14,140 bases of DNA from Candidatus Sumerlaeota bacterium. GTDB taxonomy: Bacteria > CG03 > SLGR01. Location of the stretch: positions 1-14,140 of the forward strand of contig SLGR01000101.1 of NCBI GenBank assembly GCA_007136585.1, in the 5' to 3' direction. This document shows positions 3,867-14,140 of this stretch, one piece after another. Below the pieces are notes generated by a model. The model did no database searches, had not been told where the DNA came from, and worked only from the letters and a program-made list of their open reading frames with translations. The stretch's first letter is position 1. Each line of letters begins with the position of its first letter. The translations under genes and the position numbers were made by a program.

Positions 3867-4259
3867 TTATTTACTGTACATATCTTCGGGGTTTCTGACC
3901 TTATCCCCGGTAAGGTTCCAGGTTTCACCTTCAATCCGCCTGAAGAAACAGGACCTGTACCCCTTGTGACAGGCGCAGCCCCCTCTCTGTTCAACCTTCA
4001 GAAGGAGGGTATCCCCGTCACAGTCGCAGAGAATCTCCTTTACAACCTGAAAGTTTCCCGACTCCTCCCCCTTGCGCCAGAGCTTATTCCTGCTCCTGGA
4101 AAAATAGCAGGCCCTACCCTCCTCCACAGTTACCCTGAAGGACTCGGGGCTCATATAGGCCAGCATCAGGATCTCTCCGGTCCCGGAGTCCTGAGCTATG
4201 CAGGGGACCAGCCCGCGTTCGTCAAATTTAATCTCACGGGAGAGCGCGTCAATATTCAT
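3867..4259 (-). CDS. hisI: Phosphoribosyl-AMP cyclohydrolase
   Basis: 130 residues. It opens the adenine ring of phosphoribosyl-AMP, the third step of histidine synthesis, in the cytoplasm. The Mg site is D79, D81 and D83 in the CDCDGD motif. The Zn-binding cysteines are C80, C97 (GGCACHKG) and C104 (YRSCFFR). The length fits a stand-alone PRA-cyclohydrolase with a short C-terminal tail; there is no fused phosphoribosyl-ATP pyrophosphatase (HisE) domain, so that activity must be encoded elsewhere. ATG at 4259 follows a good AAGGAG site 9 bases upstream. It is the last his gene, separated from hisA by 67 bases that hold a hairpin, unlike the overlapping genes before it. Confidence 0.96.
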   Translation of the reverse strand: MNIDALSREIKFDERGLVPCIAQDSGTGEILMLAYMSPESFRVTVEEGRACYFSRSRNKLWRKGEESGNFQVVKEILCDCDGDTLLLKVEQRGGCACHKGYRSCFFRRIEGETWNLTGDKVRNPEDMYSK

Positions 4260-4280
4260 TTTTTTATTCTCCTTATAACA

Positions 4281-4316
4281 CTTCCCGGCTCCGGAGGTTT
4301 TCTCCTGCGCCGGAAG
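4281..4316 (-). other. Strong intercistronic hairpin between hisA and hisI
   Basis: In the transcript, CTTCCGGC pairs with GCCGGGAAG (one bulged G). A three-by-three internal loop follows, then GGAG pairs with CTCC around an AAAAC loop. No run of U follows on this strand, so it is not an ordinary intrinsic terminator. It ends 8 bases before the AAGGAG ribosome site of hisI. Possible roles are an mRNA stability or processing element, control of hisI translation, or a dispersed palindromic repeat. Confidence 0.6.
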
Positions 4317-4326
4317 ATCTTATTTT

Positions 4327-5058
4327 TCAGTTTTTCTCCCGGGTTACCCTTATGGCTTCCGAGAGAAAATTATTATCCCTGTAGAGGGCTTTACCCACTA
4401 TCACACCCTTGAGGTTTTCAATACCGAGATCCCGAAGGGCCAGAATATCGTCAATCCCGGATATCCCGCCCGCAGCTATTACCGGTATCTCCACTGCGCG
4501 CGCTATCTTCCTGATCCATTTTATCCCGGGACCTTTCATCATCCCGTCCTTTTTTATATCGGTTACTATTATCTCCGAAACCCCCATCTTTTCTACCCCC
4601 CGGGCCAGCTCCGTGGCTTCCTCTGAACTCACCTCCTGCCATCCGCTTACGGCCACTCGCCCCTCCACGGCGTCTATACCCACACTTATCCTCTCAGGGT
4701 ACCTCTCAAGGAGATCTTTCAGGAAATCCCGGTCTTTAACCGCGGAGGTCCCGAGAATCACCCTGCTTACCCCTCCTTCTATAAGCTCCCTGACGGTCTC
4801 CGGATCCCTTATCCCCCCTCCGGCCTGGAGAGGTATATCAAGGCTCCGCGCGGTTTCTATAACAATATCCATATTTTTCATACTGCCCGTAAAGGCCCCG
4901 TCAAGGTCCACCATATGAAGAAGCCGGGCCCCCTTAGACTCCCAGAGTTTTGCCATCATAACCGGGTCCGGAGAATAAACGGTCTCATTCTCGGGACGCC
5001 CCTGTTTCAGGCGAACGCATCTGCCCCCCCTTACATCAACAGCCGGAATAACTATCAT
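4327..5058 (-). CDS. hisA: ProFAR isomerase (HisA)
   Basis: 243 residues, the normal length for this TIM barrel. It isomerises the aminoaldose ProFAR to the aminoketose PRFAR, the fourth step of histidine synthesis. The catalytic pair is D8 (IPAVDVRGG) and D129 (GIDAVEGRVAVSGW). Phosphate-binding glycine motifs are seen at QAGGGI (78-83) and AAGGIS (195-200), in the two half-barrels. The HisA-type N-terminus with RLKQG and the W140 position separate it from HisF. It may also act as PriA if a trpF gene is lacking, but nothing in the sequence shows this. ATG at 5058 overlaps the hisB stop by 4 bases (ATGA) and follows AAGGG by about 7 bases. The usual partners hisH and hisF are not beside it. 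Confidence 0.96.
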   Translation of the reverse strand: MIVIPAVDVRGGRCVRLKQGRPENETVYSPDPVMMAKLWESKGARLLHMVDLDGAFTGSMKNMDIVIETARSLDIPLQAGGGIRDPETVRELIEGGVSRVILGTSAVKDRDFLKDLLERYPERISVGIDAVEGRVAVSGWQEVSSEEATELARGVEKMGVSEIIVTDIKKDGMMKGPGIKWIRKIARAVEIPVIAAGGISGIDDILALRDLGIENLKGVIVGKALYRDNNFLSEAIRVTREKN

Positions 5059-5639
5059 AAGCTTCCCTTTGTTGAGGGGACTTCACCGCCGGTTTCGGAA
5101 ACGGCCTGCCCGAGAGACCTGGCCAGGCTCTTGAAAACAGACTCGGCTATATGGTGGTTATTCTCCCCGTAAGCAAGGTTTATATGAACGGCCCCCCTGA
5201 GAGTGCGGGTAAAGGCCGAGAGAAACTCCTTTATGAGCGAGTAATCAAAATCCTCCGGCCGGTCCCAGGGAACGGGAAAATCAACGTTATATACAAGCAC
5301 CCCGCGCCCGCTCAAATCCACGGCCGTATCGCACCTGGCCTCATCCATGGCAAGCATTGCCCATCCGTACCTTTCTATCCCCCTGCGTTCGCCCAGCGCC
5401 TCGGCAATAGCTTCCCCCAGCGCCGCGCCCGTATCCTCCACCGTGTGATGGGGGTCAACCCGGGTATCGCCTTCGGCGGTTACCTCAATATCAATCCCCG
5501 AGTGACGGGAAAGCTGCTCAAGCATATGAGAGAGAAACCCGCAGGGTGTGCAGATTCTGCTCTCTCCCCTGCCGTCAAGGCCGACCTTAACGCGTATCTC
5601 CGTCTCACTGGTCTTTCTTTTTATCTCAGAACTTCTCAC
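5055..5639 (-). CDS. hisB: Imidazoleglycerol-phosphate dehydratase
   Basis: 194 residues, the usual size of the single-function enzyme without a fused histidinol-phosphate phosphatase. It dehydrates imidazoleglycerol phosphate to imidazoleacetol phosphate. The Mn-binding repeats are HHTVED (H64, H65, E68) and NHHIAES (H162, H163, E166), with further conserved histidines at 38 and 46. The start is GTG at 5639: a strong GGAGG lies 6 bases upstream, inside the hisC coding region, and the gene overlaps the hisC end by 14 bases. This overlap indicates translational coupling. A separate phosphatase (HisN or HisJ type) would be needed elsewhere in the genome. Confidence 0.96.
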   Translation of the reverse strand: MRSSEIKRKTSETEIRVKVGLDGRGESRICTPCGFLSHMLEQLSRHSGIDIEVTAEGDTRVDPHHTVEDTGAALGEAIAEALGERRGIERYGWAMLAMDEARCDTAVDLSGRGVLVYNVDFPVPWDRPEDFDYSLIKEFLSAFTRTLRGAVHINLAYGENNHHIAESVFKSLARSLGQAVSETGGEVPSTKGSL

Positions 5640-6675
5640 TTTCCACCTCCCTTACGGCTTCAAGAAACACTCTGTTTTCCTCTTCTCTTCCCACTGTCAC
5701 CCGCAGAAAGCCTCTAAGCAGGGGTTCAGTAAACTTTCTTACTTTTATATTCCTTCTCCCGAGCGCTTCCAGAACCCCGTCAATATACTCAATCTCCATA
5801 AGAATAAAATTCGCATCAGACCTGTAAGGCTTTATTCCAGTGAAACCCTGAAGTTCTTCGTAGAGCCGATCCCTGGAGCTGAGAATCTTCTTTACTGAAG
5901 CAAGGGCCGCTTCCTTCTCCGAGAGCACCGCTTCAAGCACCTTCTGGTTGATTATGCTGAAGCTGTAGGGAAGCCGGGCCTTTTCAAGCTGGGAGACCAG
6001 AGCGGCGGATCCGATAAGATACCCGGCTCTTATTCCCGCCAGAGAGAAGGCTTTTGAGAAGGTCCTGAGGAGTGCGAGGTTCCCGTACTCTTCCAGAAGC
6101 GGTATAGCTGTTTTACCTGAAAATTCGTAATAAGCCTCGTCAATTACAACAAGCCCGGAAGATTTTACAATAACCTCCCTGAGCTTCCCCTCGGGAAAAG
6201 AGTTCCCGGTAGGGTTATTAGGCGATGCTATAAAAGTCAGATCAGCCTTCTTTTCCAGAATATCTTCAACGGGGAGTTCGAACCCTGCTTTCAGCGGCAC
6301 CTCCAGGTATCGGGTTCCCGTAAGCTCGGAGAGTATCCTGTACATGGAGAAAGTAGGGCGGCAGGAAACAGATACCCTTCCCGGCCCTCCGCAGGCCGTC
6401 AGAATGAGCTGTATGAGCTCATCGGAACCGTTACCGACTATTATTCCGGCGGGGTCTACCCCGCAGTACTCGGCTATCTTTTTTTTCAGGGAACGGTTCC
6501 CCGGGTCAGGGTAGCGGTTGAGGCTGAGACTTGATATCCCGCTTATGATTTTATCCCGCACCGTATCGGGAAGCTCGTAGGGGTTCTCCTGAGCGTCAAG
6601 CTTTATCTCCCCTTCGCTCGCCTCCTGAGGTATGTAGGGGGTAAGGCGCCTTATCCTTTCAAGTACGTACCTCAT
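5626..6675 (-). CDS. hisC: Histidinol-phosphate aminotransferase
   Basis: 349 residues, a fold-type I PLP enzyme. It transfers an amino group from glutamate to imidazoleacetol phosphate, giving histidinol phosphate. The PLP lysine is K208 in RTFSKAFSLAG. SPNNPTG (151-157) and VIDEAYYEF (D179, Y182) contact the cofactor, and R325 in LRVTVG binds the substrate carboxylate. The N-terminal LDAQENPY is typical of HisC. ATG at 6675 overlaps the hisD stop by 4 bases (ATGA); a GGGAG sits only 2 bases before it, so initiation probably relies on ribosomes finishing hisD. It could also serve aromatic amino acid transamination, as some HisC proteins do. Confidence 0.95.
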   Translation of the reverse strand: MRYVLERIRRLTPYIPQEASEGEIKLDAQENPYELPDTVRDKIISGISSLSLNRYPDPGNRSLKKKIAEYCGVDPAGIIVGNGSDELIQLILTACGGPGRVSVSCRPTFSMYRILSELTGTRYLEVPLKAGFELPVEDILEKKADLTFIASPNNPTGNSFPEGKLREVIVKSSGLVVIDEAYYEFSGKTAIPLLEEYGNLALLRTFSKAFSLAGIRAGYLIGSAALVSQLEKARLPYSFSIINQKVLEAVLSEKEAALASVKKILSSRDRLYEELQGFTGIKPYRSDANFILMEIEYIDGVLEALGRRNIKVRKFTEPLLRGFLRVTVGREEENRVFLEAVREVESEKF

Positions 6676-7847
6676 CTCTCCCTGAACCTCTTCTCAACCG
6701 AAAGGGCGTGGTTCTCCATTCCCTCCTCGCGGGCAAGGCGGGCTATATCGCCCGAGGCATACTCTAACCCTTCCCGGGAAGCTGTTATGAAAGCCACGTT
6801 CTTCATAAAACTCCTCACGCTTAACCCTTCTCCGTACCTTGCCGTTCCCCCGGTGGGAAGAGTATGTGACGGGCCGGCCCAGTAATCTCCAAGAGCCACA
6901 GGGGAAAACCGTCCGAGAAAAACAGCCCCCGCATTACGGACTTTCCCTACGATCCCGGTGATAATCTCCGTTCCGCAGGCCAGCTGCAGATGTTCGGGAG
7001 CTATCCGGTTAACCCTGTTTACGGCTTCAGATGAATCCTTTACCTTTATCAGACTCACCCTTCCCTTAAGCCCGGAGTCCAGCATACTCTCCACTTTTTC
7101 AAGAAGCCCCCCGTCCCATGTGATAAGGCAGGATTTAGCGTCAGGAGCGTGTTCGGCCTGCGCGGCAAGGTCCGCGCATATAACTTCCGGGTTCTGACCG
7201 GAATCCGCAATCAGGACCACCTCACTCGGCCCGGCCAGCATATCAACGCCCACCACGCCCCTGCCGTGCAGAATCATTTTGGCGCGCTGCACGTACGAGT
7301 TGCCGGGACCTGCGATCATATCAACCGCAGGGATAGTATCTGTCCCGAAAGCAAGCGCAGCGATACCCTGTGCCCCTCCTACCCGGAAAACCCGGGAGAC
7401 ACCCGAAAGTTTCGCAGCAAGGCATACGGCGGGGGTTATATTTCCCGGAGGTGAGACCATTACCACCTCATCTACACCGGCCTCGCGGGCCGGTATGGAG
7501 CACATTAAAACCGTTGACGGGTAGCTGTATCTTCCGCCGGGAACATATATACCCGCCCTCTCCACGGGTATGAGCCTGCCCGTAATATCAAACCCGCCGC
7601 GGCTGTACTCCGTTTCATTAAGGTTATTCAATTCAAAAGCGGCGTAACTTTTTATATTCTCCGCAGCTCTTTTCAGAGCCGAGGCAAGCGGTTCCTCCAC
7701 CTGCCGGGCCCCGGTATCCAGCTCATCGGCCGGAACCTCAAGTTCGGAGGCGGAAAGCCGCGCGTTGTCATACCTGGAGGTATATTTAATCAGCGCCCGG
7801 TCGCCTTTTCTTTCAACGTCTTTTATGATCTTTTCTACTTTGTCCAT
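6672..7847 (-). CDS. hisD: Histidinol dehydrogenase, short N-terminus
   Basis: 391 residues. It oxidises histidinol to histidine in two NAD-dependent steps, the last of the pathway. Zn ligands are Q230 and H233 (AAQAEHAP), D321 (GDYWAGPSH) and H380 (ENHALSVEKR). The catalytic pair is E285-H286 (IAPEHLQL). NAD-side motifs YVPGG and IAGPGNSYV are present. Compared with E. coli HisD (434 residues), about 32 N-terminal residues are absent. This start is forced: an in-frame TAA lies 13 codons upstream at 7886-7884 with no start codon between. GGAG lies 7 bases before the ATG. It overlaps murA by 13 bases and hisC by 4. All catalytic residues are present, so it should be active. Confidence 0.96.
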   Translation of the reverse strand: MDKVEKIIKDVERKGDRALIKYTSRYDNARLSASELEVPADELDTGARQVEEPLASALKRAAENIKSYAAFELNNLNETEYSRGGFDITGRLIPVERAGIYVPGGRYSYPSTVLMCSIPAREAGVDEVVMVSPPGNITPAVCLAAKLSGVSRVFRVGGAQGIAALAFGTDTIPAVDMIAGPGNSYVQRAKMILHGRGVVGVDMLAGPSEVVLIADSGQNPEVICADLAAQAEHAPDAKSCLITWDGGLLEKVESMLDSGLKGRVSLIKVKDSSEAVNRVNRIAPEHLQLACGTEIITGIVGKVRNAGAVFLGRFSPVALGDYWAGPSHTLPTGGTARYGEGLSVRSFMKNVAFITASREGLEYASGDIARLAREEGMENHALSVEKRFRER

Positions 7848-9088
7848 ATATCTGCTCCGAGTTCCCTGAGACTGCCGGCAAGGTTATCATACCCTCTTTC
7901 AATATGCTGTATTCCCGAGACCCGGGTCTTACCTGAAGCCATCATCCCGGCTATAACCAGGGCCGCTCCGCCGCGAAGATCCATAGCGTTTACAGGGGCT
8001 CCGCTCAGGGAAGACCGCCCTGATATTATGGCGGATTCCCCCTTAACCTCTATCTCCGCCCCCATCCTGCTGAGCTCCGCGCAGTGGAGAAACCTGTTCT
8101 CAAAAACTTTCTCCGTAACAACACTCACCCCTTTTGCGCGGGTAAGAAGCGCCGTAAGCGGAGCCTGCAGGTCCGTGGGGAACCCCGGGTAGGGCGCGGT
8201 AGTTATCTCCAGGGCTCTGAACCTGGAAACACCTCTTACCGAGATCAGGTTTTCCCCCGCGGTAACAGAGGCTCCGCCGTCCCTGAGTTTATCCAGAAGA
8301 GGCTCAAGGTGCTCCGGGTTTGAGTACTCAATATCCACAGCTGAATTTTTCAGGCACCCCGCTATGGCGTAAGTTCCCGCCTGTATTCTGTCATCCATCA
8401 CGGTAAAGTCCACAGGGTTGAAATCCCTCCTCCCGGAGACCCTGAGCATATCCCCGGAAACCTCGGCCTGGACCCCCATCTGTTTCACGAAACGGACCAT
8501 CTCTATAACCTCGGGCTCCCTGGAGATATTCTCTATGACTGTCTCGCCCTCGGCACGGCAGGCCGCCGCAAGCAGGTTCTCGGTCGCCCCGACAGAGGGG
8601 TAATCCAGGTATATCCTTTTTCCCCTAAGACCCTTTGAGGAGAGGTTGATAAACCCCCCGGAAAGCCTGTATGAAGCTCCCATTTTCACCAGCCCCTTAA
8701 GGTGAAGATCTATGGGCCTTGTTCCTATGGCGCACCCTCCGGGAAGAGATACGCTCACGGAGCTCTTCCTTCCGGCAAGGGCTCCCATAACAAGAATAGA
8801 GGCCCTGAGTTTCTTTACAAGGTCATAGGGGGCCTCGCTCCTGAGCCCGGAACCGTTTTCAATTATTACCGCAGAACCCTCCCGCGCCACTTTTTTCCCA
8901 AGGAGTTCAAGCAGGTTTAACATCACAGATATATCCGTCATACGGGGGATATTCCGAAGAACGCATTTTTCATCTGTTACCAGCGTCGCGGCAAGTATCG
9001 CAAGTGAGGCGTTCTTGGAACCTCCGGCCTTTACAGGCCCCTTAAGGACGGAAGGGCCCTTTATGAATATGTTTCCGCTATCCGGCAT
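7835..9088 (-). CDS. murA: UDP-N-acetylglucosamine 1-carboxyvinyltransferase
   Basis: 417 residues, full length. It adds enolpyruvate from PEP to UDP-GlcNAc, the first committed step of peptidoglycan synthesis, in the cytoplasm. K25-N26 (GGSKNASL) and D306 (FPTDLQAP) match the catalytic residues, and R398 (ERGY) binds PEP. The catalytic-loop cysteine is C119 (LPGGCAIGTRP), so the enzyme is expected to be sensitive to fosfomycin; resistant forms have Asp here. The ATG at 9088 lies inside the prmC end (28-base overlap), with AGGG 7 bases upstream. It is the bridge between the translation genes and the his genes in this operon. Confidence 0.97.
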   Translation of the reverse strand: MPDSGNIFIKGPSVLKGPVKAGGSKNASLAILAATLVTDEKCVLRNIPRMTDISVMLNLLELLGKKVAREGSAVIIENGSGLRSEAPYDLVKKLRASILVMGALAGRKSSVSVSLPGGCAIGTRPIDLHLKGLVKMGASYRLSGGFINLSSKGLRGKRIYLDYPSVGATENLLAAACRAEGETVIENISREPEVIEMVRFVKQMGVQAEVSGDMLRVSGRRDFNPVDFTVMDDRIQAGTYAIAGCLKNSAVDIEYSNPEHLEPLLDKLRDGGASVTAGENLISVRGVSRFRALEITTAPYPGFPTDLQAPLTALLTRAKGVSVVTEKVFENRFLHCAELSRMGAEIEVKGESAIISGRSSLSGAPVNAMDLRGGAALVIAGMMASGKTRVSGIQHIERGYDNLAGSLRELGADIWTK

Positions 9089-9954
9089 GTAAATACCCTG
9101 TCCTTTCCGCTGTAATCCTTCAGGTAGGCCGGGGAACTTATACCCTCTATACGGGAAACATGTTCCATAACAGGTTCCCGGTGAAAACAGGAGGTCTCCA
9201 GAAAGACGGCTCCTCCGGGTTTTACCAGGGACGGGGCCGCCTCAAGTACTGGTTTTATATACCTGAGCCCGTCACTTCCGGCCAGGAGAGCTCCCGGTGG
9301 CTCCTTTCTTACCTCTTCCTCAAGCTCACCGTATTCTGCTTCAGAGACGTATGGAGGGTTTGATATAAGAAGATCAAAACTTCCCTGAACCTCCCCGCTC
9401 AAAACATTTGAGAGCTCAAGCATATCTCCCTCCAGAAACCTCACCCTGCCGGAAACACCGTGCGAAGCGGCGTTTACCCGGGCCGTTTCCAAAGCGGAGG
9501 GGCTCTTCTCAACCGCAATGAGTTCCGCGTCGGAATTAACCGCAAGCGCTATAGCGATATTCCCGCATCCCGAACCAAGCTCCAGCACGCGCCCCCCCCC
9601 GGTCAAGTTAAGATGCTCAAGGGCCTTCTCTGCAAGGATCTCCGTTTCCGGGCGCGGGATAAGGGTATCTTCCGTGACCCTGAACTCAAGCCCGAAGAAA
9701 AAAGCCCGCCCGGATGCGTACTGCAGGGGCATCCGGGCTCTCCGGGCCCTGATAAGCCTGTAATAACTGGAGAGTGTTTTCCTGGCGGGATAACTCTTAC
9801 CCTCAAGGTGTATCAGGGCCGGGGTTATTCCGGAGGCTTCGGCAAAAACCGCAGCTGCTTCGCCAGGATCCAGCCCACGGCTCTCAAGGAGTTTTTCTCC
9901 CCGGGATATATGCTCCATTAACGTTACAGCCTTCTCACTCCGCTGCCTGTTCAT
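9061..9954 (-). CDS. prmC: Peptide chain release factor N5-glutamine methyltransferase
   Basis: 297 residues. It methylates the glutamine of the GGQ motif in release factors using S-adenosylmethionine. Features are an N-terminal helical domain (about 15-75), LIPRPETE (98-105), the SAM loop ELGSGCGN (125-132), and the catalytic NPPY (199-202) that holds the target glutamine. It directly follows its substrate gene prfA with a 20-base overlap. The start is uncertain. ATG at 9954 has only a distant AGGA (12 bases). An in-frame ATG at residue 13 (9918) gives an N-terminus closer to the family norm and would leave a 16-base gap after prfA. The function is secure. Confidence 0.94.
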   Translation of the reverse strand: MNRQRSEKAVTLMEHISRGEKLLESRGLDPGEAAAVFAEASGITPALIHLEGKSYPARKTLSSYYRLIRARRARMPLQYASGRAFFFGLEFRVTEDTLIPRPETEILAEKALEHLNLTGGGRVLELGSGCGNIAIALAVNSDAELIAVEKSPSALETARVNAASHGVSGRVRFLEGDMLELSNVLSGEVQGSFDLLISNPPYVSEAEYGELEEEVRKEPPGALLAGSDGLRYIKPVLEAAPSLVKPGGAVFLETSCFHREPVMEHVSRIEGISSPAYLKDYSGKDRVFTCRIAETYS

Positions 9955-10999
9955 TGAGGATTTGCTTCCTTACTTCCGAGATAAAATCCCCCAGAGCCCC
10001 ATCCAGTATTCCCTGAAGGTTATAAGAGGTTACTGAACCCCTGTGATCGGTTATTCTGTTCTGGGGAAAGTTATAAGTCCTTATCTTCTCGCTCCTGTCA
10101 CCGCTCCCTATCTGTTCTCGCCTGCGTGCATCTTCCTTTGAGAGACGGTCCTGTTTCATCCTGTCCTTAAGCCTTGCGCTAAGTATATTCATCGCCTTGG
10201 CCCTGTTCTGAAACTGGGAACGTTCATCCTGGCACTGGGCTACCACACCTGTAGGTATATGGGTTATACGCACGGCCGAATCTGTAACATTGACATGCTG
10301 CCCCCCCTTCCCGGAGGCCCTGTATGTATCAATCCTTAAGTCATCTTTCCTTATATTAAGCTCCACCGGGTCCGCCTGGGGAAGAACCGCCACGCTGCAG
10401 GCCGAGGTATGTATCCTCCCCCCGCTTTCGGTCTCCGGTACTCTCTGAACCCGGTGAACCCCGCTCTCCCACTTGAGGGTCTCATACACATCCTTCCCCT
10501 CAACCGAAAAAACTATTTCCTTCAAACCACCAAGCCCTGTGGTTGAGCTCCCGGAATATATATCCAGCTTCCACCCCATATTCTCAACAAACCTGGAGTA
10601 CATCCTGAAAAGATCGGCGCAAAAGAGCGCAGCCTCTTCGCCGCCGGTCCCGGCCCGGAGCTCAAAGATTACGTTTTTTCCCGCATCAGGGTCCTTGGGA
10701 ATAAGATGCTGGCGGAGGGTCTTTTCCAGGGAATCTATCTTTTCTTTAAGAGTTCCTACCTCTTCCTCGGCAAGCTCTCTCATATCTCCGGACTCCTGCT
10801 CAACAAGAGTCTCCGCCTGGGTAAGCTGACGTTTCAGATCAAGGTACCTGTCGTAATCTTCTACCGGACCCCGCAGCTCGCCGTGGCGTTTCCCGTAATC
10901 CCGGATCTTTTCAGGGTCGGATATTACCTCGGGAAGAGTAAGTTTCTTCTCAAGTTCAAGGAACTCCTTTTTCAGTTCCTCAAATTTTTCCAGTGACAT
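9935..10999 (-). CDS. prfA: Peptide chain release factor 1
   Basis: 354 residues, normal for RF1. It reads UAA and UAG stop codons and triggers release of the finished protein. P188-E189-T190 in RVPETESGG is the RF1-type PxT codon-recognition motif (RF2 has SPF). GGQ at 232-234 (SGKGGQHVN) reaches the peptidyl-transferase centre and is the target of PrmC, encoded next. The N-terminal third is charged and helical. The ATG at 10999 fits the RF1 N-terminus but has no clear ribosome site. It comes 59 bases after rpmE. Several genes here, such as serA and murA, end in TAG and so need RF1. Confidence 0.97.
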   Translation of the reverse strand: MSLEKFEELKKEFLELEKKLTLPEVISDPEKIRDYGKRHGELRGPVEDYDRYLDLKRQLTQAETLVEQESGDMRELAEEEVGTLKEKIDSLEKTLRQHLIPKDPDAGKNVIFELRAGTGGEEAALFCADLFRMYSRFVENMGWKLDIYSGSSTTGLGGLKEIVFSVEGKDVYETLKWESGVHRVQRVPETESGGRIHTSACSVAVLPQADPVELNIRKDDLRIDTYRASGKGGQHVNVTDSAVRITHIPTGVVAQCQDERSQFQNRAKAMNILSARLKDRMKQDRLSKEDARRREQIGSGDRSEKIRTYNFPQNRITDHRGSVTSYNLQGILDGALGDFISEVRKQILNEQAAE

Positions 11000-11058: not shown

Positions 11059-11268
11059 TTACCGCCCTGACTTTTTACCGTATTTTCTCTGAAATTTTTC
11101 AACACGCCCGGCAGAGTCAACCAGTTTCTGCTCTCCCGTGTAGTACGGGTGGCAGGCGGAACACATCTCAACTTTTATTGTTTTTCTCGTTGAGCGGGCC
11201 TTGAACTCCTCCCCGCAGGCGCAGATGAATTTTGCCTCGTGAATTTCAGGATGTATTTTTTTCTTCAT
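11059..11268 (-). CDS. rpmE: 50S ribosomal protein L31, zinc-binding type
   Basis: 69 residues, the usual size. Four cysteines, C16 and C18 (FICACGEEF) and C36 and C39 (EMCSACHPYYTG), form the Zn-binding pattern of the C+ form; zinc-free paralogues (YkgM type) lack them. MKKKIHPEIH at the start and the HPYYTGEQK block are diagnostic. It sits at the bridge region of the large subunit. The ATG at 11268 has a strong GGAGG 5 bases upstream. It follows tRNA-Lys by 87 bases and heads the rpmE-prfA-prmC-murA-his block; the rho gene often found before rpmE is absent. Confidence 0.97.
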   Translation of the reverse strand: MKKKIHPEIHEAKFICACGEEFKARSTRKTIKVEMCSACHPYYTGEQKLVDSAGRVEKFQRKYGKKSGR

Positions 11269-11355: not shown

Positions 11356-11431
11356 TGGTGAGCCAGGAAGGATTCGAACCTTCGACCCACGGCTTAAAAG
11401 GCCGTTGCTCTGCCAACTGAGCTACTGGCCC
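11356..11431 (-). tRNA. tRNA-Lys (anticodon UUU)
   Basis: 76 bases including an encoded CCA. The acceptor stem GGGCCAG pairs with CTGGCTC (one G-U), with A as discriminator base. The D stem is GCTC/GAGC. The anticodon stem is ACGGC/GCCGT around the loop CTTTTAA, giving anticodon TTT. The T arm is GAAGG, TTCGAAT, CCTTC. All arms pair fully. Its first 10 bases are shared with the 3' end of serA, including the serA stop codon, so the two are presumably on one transcript. A run of six T follows the CCA after one base. Confidence 0.97.
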
Positions 11432-12987
11432 ACTCTTATATTTTTTACCTGTGTGATATATTCAATCTTCTGTATCTTTTCCTTAAGTTCTTCCGGTATA
11501 TCCCCGTCTATCTCTATGACGGTTACAGCTTCCCCGCCGGCTGATTTTCTTCCCACTTCCATAGAAGCGATATTTATACTGTTCTCACCCAGAACTGTTC
11601 CTATATGACCTATAACACCCGGGCGGTCGGCGTTAATTATAACAAGAAGGTTACCCGAAAGAGGGATATCAAATATATACCCGTTTAACCCTGTAAGCCT
11701 GGGAACGCCGCCTATTATGCCACCCTCAACTGAGAAATCTTCATTAAAGAATACCCTGATATCCCCGAGCATCCTGGTATCTCCGGAAACTGACTGCGAT
11801 ACTATCTCAACCCCCCTCTCCCGGGCCAGGACACGGGCATTTATAAGGTTTACACCCTCAATAAATTGAGAAAGATATCCCTTAAGAACCGTAACTGTAA
11901 GGGAGTCTCCGGCCTTTTCCATTTTATCCCTGTAACTTATCCTTACACTTTCTGCAAGATTCTCCGAAAGCTGTCCGCATACTACCCCTAGCTTCTCGGC
12001 AAGCTCACGTATATCCGGGTCCATATCCTGCGCAAAGGCGTTTACAGCATTTATCATACGGCCTGTCTCAAGATAATGCACAGCCTGTTTTACAATCTCT
12101 ACCGCGACTCGCTCCTGGGCCTCGGAAGTTGCTGCCCCGAGATGAGGGGTACAGACCGCGCTGTCCATCTTAAAGACAGGAGAATCGGTAACGGGCTCTT
12201 TCGGATAAACGTCAAGGGCCGCGCCCTTTATAACGCCTTTTTCAAGCGCCTCGGAAAGATCTTCTTCATTAACTATACCGCCCCTTGCGCAGTTGACCAG
12301 AAAAGCTGATTTTTTCATCCGGGAAATACTCTCCGCGTTAAAAAGGTTTCTCGTCTTGTCGTTCAGCGGGGAGTGTATTGTTATTATATCGGATTTTTCC
12401 AGAAGCTCGTCAAATTCAACAAGCCGGGCGCTCAGCTCTCCGGCCATTTCCTCGGAGGCGTACGGGTCGCAGGCTATTATTTTCATTCCGAAAGCCCCGG
12501 CGCGTTTCCCCACCTCGCATCCTATTTTCCCCAGCCCCAGGATACCCAGGGTCTTTCCGTAAAGCTCCGTGCCCTTGTATTTTTTCTTATCCCATCTGCC
12601 TTCCTTAAGAGCCTGGTGGGACGGAGAAACATTGCGGAGAAGGCTCAGGATAAGGGCCCAGGTATGTTCACACGCGGAAACGGTATTCCCCGCAGGCACG
12701 TTCATTACCACTATTCCCTTCCGCGTAGCCGCATCTATATCGACGTTATCCACCCCTACGCCTGCCCGTCCGATGATCCTTAGCCTCTCGGCTTTCTCAA
12801 TAATATCAGCGGTCACATTTGTACCGCTTCTTATAAGAAGAGCATCGTACTCACTTATCACTCCGGCCAGGGAGTCCCCGTCAAGGGAGGGGTCCGTTTT
12901 TACTTCATACCCTTTCTCGTTTAAAATATCCAGCCCCTGCCGGGAGAGACTGTCAGTAACAAGAACTTTCCATTTTTTTTCTGCCAT
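11422..12987 (-). CDS. serA: D-3-phosphoglycerate dehydrogenase, long form with ACT domain
   Basis: 521 residues. It oxidises 3-phosphoglycerate to 3-phosphohydroxypyruvate with NAD, the first step of serine synthesis. The substrate domain (about 1-95 and 285-315) surrounds the NAD domain with GLGKIG (151-156). Catalytic residues are R235 (NCARGG), E264 and H282 (TPHLG). An ASB-type domain covers about 320-435 and a C-terminal ACT domain about 448-521, the usual site of serine feedback control. GGAGG lies 10 bases before the ATG. It starts 38 bases after clpX with no promoter seen between, so co-transcription is likely. The end is unusual: the last codons and the TAG stop at 11424-11422 lie in the tRNA-Lys gene, yet the protein ends where the ACT fold is expected to end. 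Confidence 0.97.
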   Translation of the reverse strand: MAEKKWKVLVTDSLSRQGLDILNEKGYEVKTDPSLDGDSLAGVISEYDALLIRSGTNVTADIIEKAERLRIIGRAGVGVDNVDIDAATRKGIVVMNVPAGNTVSACEHTWALILSLLRNVSPSHQALKEGRWDKKKYKGTELYGKTLGILGLGKIGCEVGKRAGAFGMKIIACDPYASEEMAGELSARLVEFDELLEKSDIITIHSPLNDKTRNLFNAESISRMKKSAFLVNCARGGIVNEEDLSEALEKGVIKGAALDVYPKEPVTDSPVFKMDSAVCTPHLGAATSEAQERVAVEIVKQAVHYLETGRMINAVNAFAQDMDPDIRELAEKLGVVCGQLSENLAESVRISYRDKMEKAGDSLTVTVLKGYLSQFIEGVNLINARVLARERGVEIVSQSVSGDTRMLGDIRVFFNEDFSVEGGIIGGVPRLTGLNGYIFDIPLSGNLLVIINADRPGVIGHIGTVLGENSINIASMEVGRKSAGGEAVTVIEIDGDIPEELKEKIQKIEYITQVKNIRVGQ

Positions 12988-13025: not shown

Positions 13026-14140
13026 TTACGCGGTCTTAAGAACGGGCTCCGCCCTTTTCTCTATGACCTCGGGTGTTACTATACATTCCACAATATCCTT
13101 CTTATCGGGAATACTGTACATCATATCAAGCATTATGCGTTCAATTATAGAACGCAGACCCCTGGCCCCTCGCGACCTTTTTGCCGAATCGGAAGCAATA
13201 AGCCGGAGGGCCCCCTCTGTAACTGTCAGACGTATTCCTTCAAGAGCGAAAAGCTTCTTATACTGCTTTATAATTGAATTTCGCGGCTCGGTAAGCACCC
13301 TCACAAGATCCTCCTCCGTAAGATCGCTGAAAGGTCCGGCTACGGGAAGGCGCCCTACAAGTTCCGGGATTAGTCCGTATTTTATAAGATCCTCAGGCTC
13401 TATCTTTGCAAAGATCTCCCCTATATTTTTTGATTTGTCCCTTACCAGGCTAGCCCCGAAACCGACCTGTTTCTCACTAAGCCGGGAAGCGATTATATCT
13501 TCAAGTCCGCTGAAAGCGCCCCCGCAGATAAAAAGGATATTCGTTGTATCAACCTGAATAAATTTCTGGTTGGGGTGTTTCCTTCCGCCCTGGGGATGCA
13601 CGTTGGCCACGGTTCCCTCAAGTATCTTAAGAAGAGCCTGCTGAACCCCTTCTCCGGAAACGTCCCTGGTTATTGACGGGGTCTCGGATTTCCGTGAAAT
13701 CTTATCTATCTCGTCAACGTAAATTATACCCCACTCAGCCAGGCGCACGTCAAACCCGGAGTTCTGGAGAAGTCTGAGTATGATATTTTCCACATCCTCT
13801 CCCACGTACCCTGCCTCTGTTAAAGTTGTAGCGTCCGATATGGCAAACGGCACATCAAGTATATCCGCAAGGGTTCGCGCCATAAGGGTCTTCCCGGTAC
13901 CCGTGGGGCCCGCCAGAAGTATATTAGACTTTTCCAGTTCCACGTCCTCGTCAAATTCTATTACCTCCCGCTCGTCATCAAAAAAGGAAAACGGGCCTTT
14001 TCCTGTAAGCCCCCCTCTCTTGTAATGGTTGTAAACCGCCACGGAAATAACTTTTTTAGCCGTATCCTGTCCGATTATATATTCATCCAGAACTTTTTTT
14101 ATCTGGCTGGGGCGGGGAAGCTTTTTGGTCCTTTTTTTCC
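13026..14140 (-). CDS. clpX: ATP-dependent Clp protease ATP-binding subunit ClpX, 5' end outside window
   Basis: 370 codons are visible. The frame stays open to the window edge: residues before the internal GTG at 14042 read [18 protein letters not shown], the conserved start of the ClpX AAA+ module, so the gene does not begin at 14042. The N-terminal zinc-binding domain is beyond the edge. ClpX unfolds tagged proteins and feeds them to ClpP. Visible are Walker A GPTGTGKT, the pore loop GYVGED, Walker [28 protein letters not shown], and the sensor-2 region [14 protein letters not shown]. The ClpP-contact loop reads VGF where E. coli has IGF. It is followed by serA 38 bases downstream. Confidence 0.97.

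Follow-up and report, generated by a model that had tools for sequence, protein, structure and literature searches.

A serA gene that ends inside tRNA-Lys(UUU) in an order of Candidatus Sumerlaeota, and a promoter-like element within its coding sequence

serA and tRNA-Lys(UUU) share ten nucleotides

The window, the whole 14,140 nt stretch that was analysed (contig SLGR01000101.1 of assembly GCA_007136585.1), includes part of an operon on the minus strand in which serA is followed by a tRNA-Lys(UUU) gene (Table 1). The gene order clpX-(lon)-serA-tRNA-Lys-rpmE-prfA-prmC-murA-hisDCBAI is syntenic throughout the order, with rpmE recognised by inspection and with lon or a small additional ORF inserted in some members. 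In the window, the prfA/prmC, prmC/murA, murA/hisD, hisD/hisC, hisC/hisB and hisB/hisA ends overlap, making this a compact operon.

Table 1. Features of the window
Feature	Position	Strand	Details
clpX	13026..14042	minus	upstream of serA; 5' part past contig end; NF003745/TIGR00382
serA	11422..12987	minus	521 aa, D-3-phosphoglycerate dehydrogenase; TAG stop at 11424-11422
Degraded promoter-like element in serA	11957-11929	minus	TTGCAG-N17-TACAGG; aligned with TTGACA-N18-TATAWA of four relatives
serA/tRNA-Lys shared segment	11422..11431	minus	10 nt, tRNA nt 1-10
tRNA-Lys(UUU)	11356..11431	minus	76 nt, CCA encoded; ARAGORN
rpmE (ribosomal protein L31)	11059..11268	minus	next after tRNA; translation MKKKIHPEIHEAKFICACGEEFKARS...; named by inspection
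prfA, prmC, murA, hisD, hisC, hisB, hisA, hisI	3867..10999	minus	ORF coordinates, synteny; names by inspection

Both serA and tRNA-Lys(UUU) look like real genes. In a profile search SerA matched TIGR01327 (1.4e-171), and the Pfam domains 2-Hacid_dh, 2-Hacid_dh_C, PGDH_inter and ACT make up the catalytic, intervening and ACT parts of the full three-domain enzyme. The tRNA, the only one detected in the window by ARAGORN, has the top tRNA score in the genome (74.6 bits; 1.88-Mb assembly). A second tRNA-Lys with a UUU anticodon was not found in the assembly, and a tRNA-Lys(CUU) is present.

The shared segment comprises the last base of a Val codon followed by the GGC, CAG and TAG codons of serA. 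The 3' end of serA is ..AAA AAT ATA AGA GT/G GGC CAG TAG, where the slash marks the start of the tRNA, and the junction as a whole reads ..AAA AAT ATA AGA GT/GGGCCAGTAGCTCAG. An earlier note on this DNA had claimed that the genes share ten bases, with the last base of GTG as nucleotide 1 of the tRNA and the TAG stop as nucleotides 8-10. The ARAGORN call and the serA ORF bear out the first point, and the second can be read directly from the junction sequence. The overlap is no accident of assembly, because the identical 10-nt overlap occurs in four other genomes.

Conservation and loss of the overlap

The comparison set consisted of 16 genomes of the phylum, with the window genome designated G000. 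The serA/tRNA-Lys junction, which the earlier note had singled out for comparison among relatives, was the same, and in the same frame, in each of the five genomes of the order whose serA is full-length, namely G000, G001 and G002 from one family and G003 and G007 from other families. The C-terminus reads V-(G/S)-(Q/P)-stop throughout, with SerA identity as low as 52 %, and the base before nucleotide 1 of the tRNA (N-1) is U in every case. No tRNA was found near the full-length serA of G009, G011 and G013, the members of the phylum beyond this order that were checked.

The Val codon that contains the first nucleotide of the tRNA corresponds, in the alignment, to the C-terminal residue of most SerA proteins from outside the order, so the tRNA adjoins the last ordinary codon of serA. 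The only extra C-terminal residues in the overlap proteins are the Gly/Ser-Gln/Pro pair. A stop codon placed earlier would cut the ACT domain, and one within nucleotides 2-7 of the tRNA would require a compensating change in the acceptor stem. The overlap may thus persist because there is no slack in either the SerA C-terminus or the 5' strand of the tRNA. The last 15 codons of serA were under no outstanding nucleotide constraint (synonymous identity 0.48 vs 0.39 gene-wide).

The overlap is absent from G005, which belongs to the same genus as G007 and retains both the neighbourhood and the linkage to the tRNA. The C-terminal half of its SerA, including the intervening and ACT domains, is gone, the protein ends ..AVNDIE followed by tandem stops, and the tRNA starts approximately 95 nt past the end of the gene. 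This serA lies at L066:3443-4411, and the congener G007 keeps both domains; feedback control by serine may have been lost in G005. In G004 the only serA is of the short form, and the 20 kb examined contain no tRNA.

A promoter-like element within serA

In the window genome, a near-consensus promoter lies within some 10-35 nt of most free-standing tRNA genes. No strong promoter was found directly upstream of tRNA-Lys(UUU) in the overlap genomes, where the scores were no better than those of windows inside serA. A scan of the whole of serA revealed TTGACA-N18-TATAAA at -500 to -503 from the tRNA in G001, G002 and G003, and TTGACA-N18-TATATA is present at the aligned site in G007. An element of the form TTGACA-N18-TATAWA is therefore carried by four of the five overlap genomes. 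The window genome has only a degraded copy at this position (Table 1), which scored 6.5 vs 10-11 in the relatives and is probably inactive, and the single other candidate there is TTGACG-N19-TATAAT at -957. Given that the internal element is degraded and that nothing strong lies close upstream, it is plausible that in the window genome the tRNA is supplied by read-through of the operon, together with serA.

The internal element could be a by-product of the conserved LT...ISYK protein motif encoded in AT-rich codons and have no promoter function. The protein motif does lift the score by itself, with a shuffle mean of 35 at this column vs the 43 observed, and the chance of at least 10 of 12 matches is 0.10-0.26 per genome. 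However, the column score of 43, taken over the best four genomes of the five-gene alignment, lies above all of 150 synonymous shuffles (39.5 or less), which treat these related genomes as independent, and the chance of the exact motif given the protein is just 0.007-0.035 per genome in four genomes. The highest synonymous conservation of serA also falls at the element, with identity of 0.89 in a 14-codon window of the four genomes vs a mean of 0.40. Moreover, a near-identical string has been kept outside the ORF, beside the tRNA, in G005. The conserved site thus exceeds what the protein sequence would lead one to expect in the four relatives, while being degraded in the window genome, and we consider the by-product explanation unlikely. 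In 23 SerA genes not followed by tRNA-Lys, TTGACA is absent from the aligned position and the score does not exceed 7.5.

The string in the G005 spacer is TTGACA-N18-TATATA, and 19 nt separate its end from the tRNA. A 15-nt segment of the spacer, ATAATAAGTTATATA, matches the internal site of G007 exactly, and TTTGACA lies 9 nt upstream of this segment in both. It is as if the deletion in G005 had spared the promoter and removed the coding sequence that once separated it from the tRNA.

We read the element as a putative sigma70-like tRNA promoter internal to the serA ORF. With such a promoter, the supply of tRNA need not depend on messages that encode SerA. The earlier note had placed both genes on one transcript and had named a tRNA-specific promoter within serA, together with a distinct, longer serA transcript, as speaking against its reading. 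A candidate for the first of these is indeed conserved in four of the five genomes, which weakens the one-transcript premise for them, and its degradation in the window genome leaves co-transcription plausible there. The finding points to tRNA promoters hidden in coding sequence, where annotation that looks to intergenic regions would overlook them.

Other protein genes that run into tRNAs

A survey took in six genomes of the order, with 195 tRNAs that had 240 nt or more of sequence upstream, and four complete genomes of other phyla, with 111 tRNAs. Ten of the 195 were entered by a real protein gene, compared with one of the 111 (Fisher p = 0.06), an excess that is suggestive only. The ten cases represent four gene pairs related by descent. 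These are serA in five genomes, ispE/tRNA-Gln in G001 and G005, rdgB/tRNA-Pro in G001 and G005, and alaS/tRNA-Arg(CCG) in G003. The stop codon occupies nucleotides 8-10 of the tRNA in nine of the ten, the exception being rdgB of G005 (nucleotides 22-24). The alaS/tRNA-Arg(CCG) overlap is at L151:1501-1510 and those of rdgB with tRNA-Pro(UGG) are at L163:1501-1510 (G001) and L270:1003-1026 (G005).

In other relatives the same neighbours do not overlap, with stops at -54, -1, -63 and -19 from nucleotide 1 of the tRNA for alaS, at -12 and -56 for rdgB and at -4 for ispE. These three pairs stay linked whether or not they overlap. Together they form a natural series of overlapping, abutting and separated genes, in which the cost of RNase P cleavage to the upstream message can be addressed.

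Within ispE, TTGACA-N17 followed by TAAAAT, TAGAAT or TAAGAT was found at -278 to -283 from the tRNA-Gln in G000, G001 and G005, and the chance of the TTGACA is 0.015-0.047 per genome. These sites, which precede tRNA-Gln(UUG) at the same place in the gene (L189, L291 and L119), are likely to represent a second putative ORF-internal tRNA promoter. A search with the standard hexamers yielded one weak internal site in rdgB upstream of tRNA-Pro and none in alaS.

The single control case (L303, in G025) is a long transposase-like gene, recognised by eye, that runs into a tRNA-Thr and stops at nucleotides 21-23; three other control open frames look non-coding on the same visual basis. In G009, which does not belong to the order, the UAG of a tRNA-Lys(UUU) terminates a GIY-YIG nuclease gene (L059:1534-1803, minus strand). 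This is an independent case and the partner is possibly mobile.

A stop triplet occupies nucleotides 8-10 in 15 of the 29 tRNAs of the window genome. The U8-A9-G10 triplet is very common and strongly conserved in tRNAs, and one reading frame in three will therefore often meet a stop at this position. Any gene adjoining a tRNA in the appropriate frame is thereby offered a ready-made stop codon, and chance enters the overlap mainly via the frame.

Origin and consequences of the overlap

The explanation that we favour, and hold to be rather probable, is that this is an ancestral overlap produced by compaction and then locked in, that the tRNA is fed by both the operon and ORF-internal promoters, and that the loss of stop codons is a tolerated cost and not an evolved switch. 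In the ancestor of the order a tRNA-Lys gene would have come to abut the final sense codon of serA. Once serA had lost its own stop codon, translation would have run two codons into the tRNA, as far as U8-A9-G10, and the pair would then have been locked by a SerA with no spare C-terminal residues and a tRNA 5' strand that could not change. For most of the relatives, the sigma70-like promoter in serA, about 500 nt upstream, is a probable additional source of tRNA transcripts, and this would uncouple the tRNA supply from full serA messages. Maturation of the long operon transcript by RNase P would strip the serA stop from that molecule, a cost that could be met by co-transcriptional translation and tmRNA rescue. 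Three points argue for a tolerated side effect: the sister pairs can do without an overlap, G005 has lost the one in serA, and putative promoters lie within the coding sequence.

The earlier note had instead seen a switch, and some of its premises hold. RNase P cleaves at nucleotide 1 of the tRNA, and from the sequence and this known enzymology it follows that the cut would leave a serA message without a stop codon, ending ..AGA GU. Conversely, a ribosome terminating at the UAG would, judging from the sequence, sit over the 5' strand of the acceptor stem and some of the D arm, whose folding the note had expected it to block. The proposed rescue by tmRNA stands as far as availability goes, as each of the five overlap genomes has a tmRNA. 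On such a scheme, translation of serA would conflict with maturation of the tRNA-Lys on one transcript, ribosome traffic or RNase P activity would set the ratio of SerA to tRNA-Lys, and tmRNA with ClpXP would clear the nonstop SerA. The geometry of the overlap is as this requires, no promoter was found immediately before tRNA-Lys in the genomes with the overlap, clpX is upstream in the same operon, and the overlap is retained wherever serA is full-length. The switch itself is nevertheless unsupported. A promoter-like element is conserved within serA in four of the five genomes, G005 lost the overlap while the linkage stayed, and the ispE, rdgB and alaS overlaps switch on and off among relatives. 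In addition, there is no evident metabolic tie between serine synthesis and tRNA-Lys, and Lys codons are only a little more numerous towards the 3' end of these serA genes than at that of other SerAs (2.0 vs 1.3 per 12 residues, n = 5). Together these make a regulatory conflict of this kind decidedly unlikely. Feedback through stalling at Lys codons at the serA 3' end was rejected on the same slight excess.

Two further forms of coupling were weighed. Selection could have favoured a mild coupling, in which the tRNA serves as a 3' punctuation or stability element of the serA message, the overlap sets the spacing for RNase P and GTG supplies the U at -1. The invariant U at N-1 in the five overlap genomes and the survival of the serA-tRNA linkage through a change of downstream gene are in keeping with this. 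However, cleavage takes off the stop codon, so the protected message would be a nonstop message, and the ispE, rdgB and alaS linkages are also kept where there is no overlap; we find this very unlikely. It is equally doubtful that serA/tRNA-Lys, ispE/tRNA-Gln, rdgB/tRNA-Pro and alaS/tRNA-Arg are standing pairs in which the UAG at nucleotides 8-10 terminates the gene and the decision to translate the transcript or to cleave it with RNase P is used for regulation, coupling the supply of enzyme and tRNA.

Presence of tmRNA was also considered as a correlate of the overlap and rejected, as it is found in G004, which has no overlap, as well as in the five overlap genomes, and the genomes are too few. 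In G005 (94 % complete), no tmRNA was detected above the Rfam cut-off, and an assembly gap is possible. The order genome with no tmRNA match is the same one that lost the serA overlap and kept the linkage.

Two points run counter to the locked-in compaction overlap that we favour. The serA overlap has been kept in all five genomes, but the other pairs have not kept theirs, and selection might be involved. In the window genome, moreover, the tRNA may depend on co-transcription with serA.

Comparison with known overlaps

In ordinary operons of protein and tRNA genes, RNase P excises the tRNA from a polycistronic transcript and the upstream gene usually ends before the tRNA. Excision of the tRNA is common to those operons and to the arrangement described here, but in the former cleavage usually spares the upstream stop, whereas the serA stop would be removed.

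Overlaps between tRNA and protein genes in animal mitochondria, such as the tRNA-Lys within cox1 of Armadillidium, are cited in a study of selB-selC (Mukai 2021, PMC8124441). As cited there, they resemble the present case in that tRNA processing competes with an intact message of the overlapping gene. They differ in that the genome is that of a compact organelle and the entire tRNA lies inside the coding region, whereas here 10 nt are shared at the 3' end of an ORF in a cellular bacterium.

The closest precedent is the overlap of selB with selC, the gene for tRNA-Sec, in Alphaproteobacteria, Gammaproteobacteria and Nitrospirae (PMC8124441). In both systems a protein ORF extends into the co-directional tRNA gene that follows it, and the overlap is conserved among relatives with losses, being present in five of five full-length serA genes and lost in G005. 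In some selB-selC lineages the stop codon is inside the tRNA, at nucleotides 46-48, and the overlap has been lost in some relatives (PMC8124441). That a nonstop mRNA arises after tRNA processing and lowers the amount of protein is a proposal of that study (PMC8124441), and the same idea may apply to serA and tRNA-Lys. The partners are different, however. tRNA-Sec and its own elongation factor are a plausible regulatory pair, whereas those found here are elongator tRNAs and unrelated housekeeping genes, and tRNA-Lys(UUU) with SerA falls outside the selB-selC class in its narrow sense. The serA stop, moreover, comes after just two codons of tRNA sequence, at the strongly conserved U8-A9-G10. Beyond PMC8124441, nothing was found in the open-licence literature on bacterial elongator tRNAs overlapping protein genes. 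The serA/tRNA-Lys overlap extends the bacterial protein/tRNA overlaps from the special case of tRNA-Sec to canonical elongator tRNAs.
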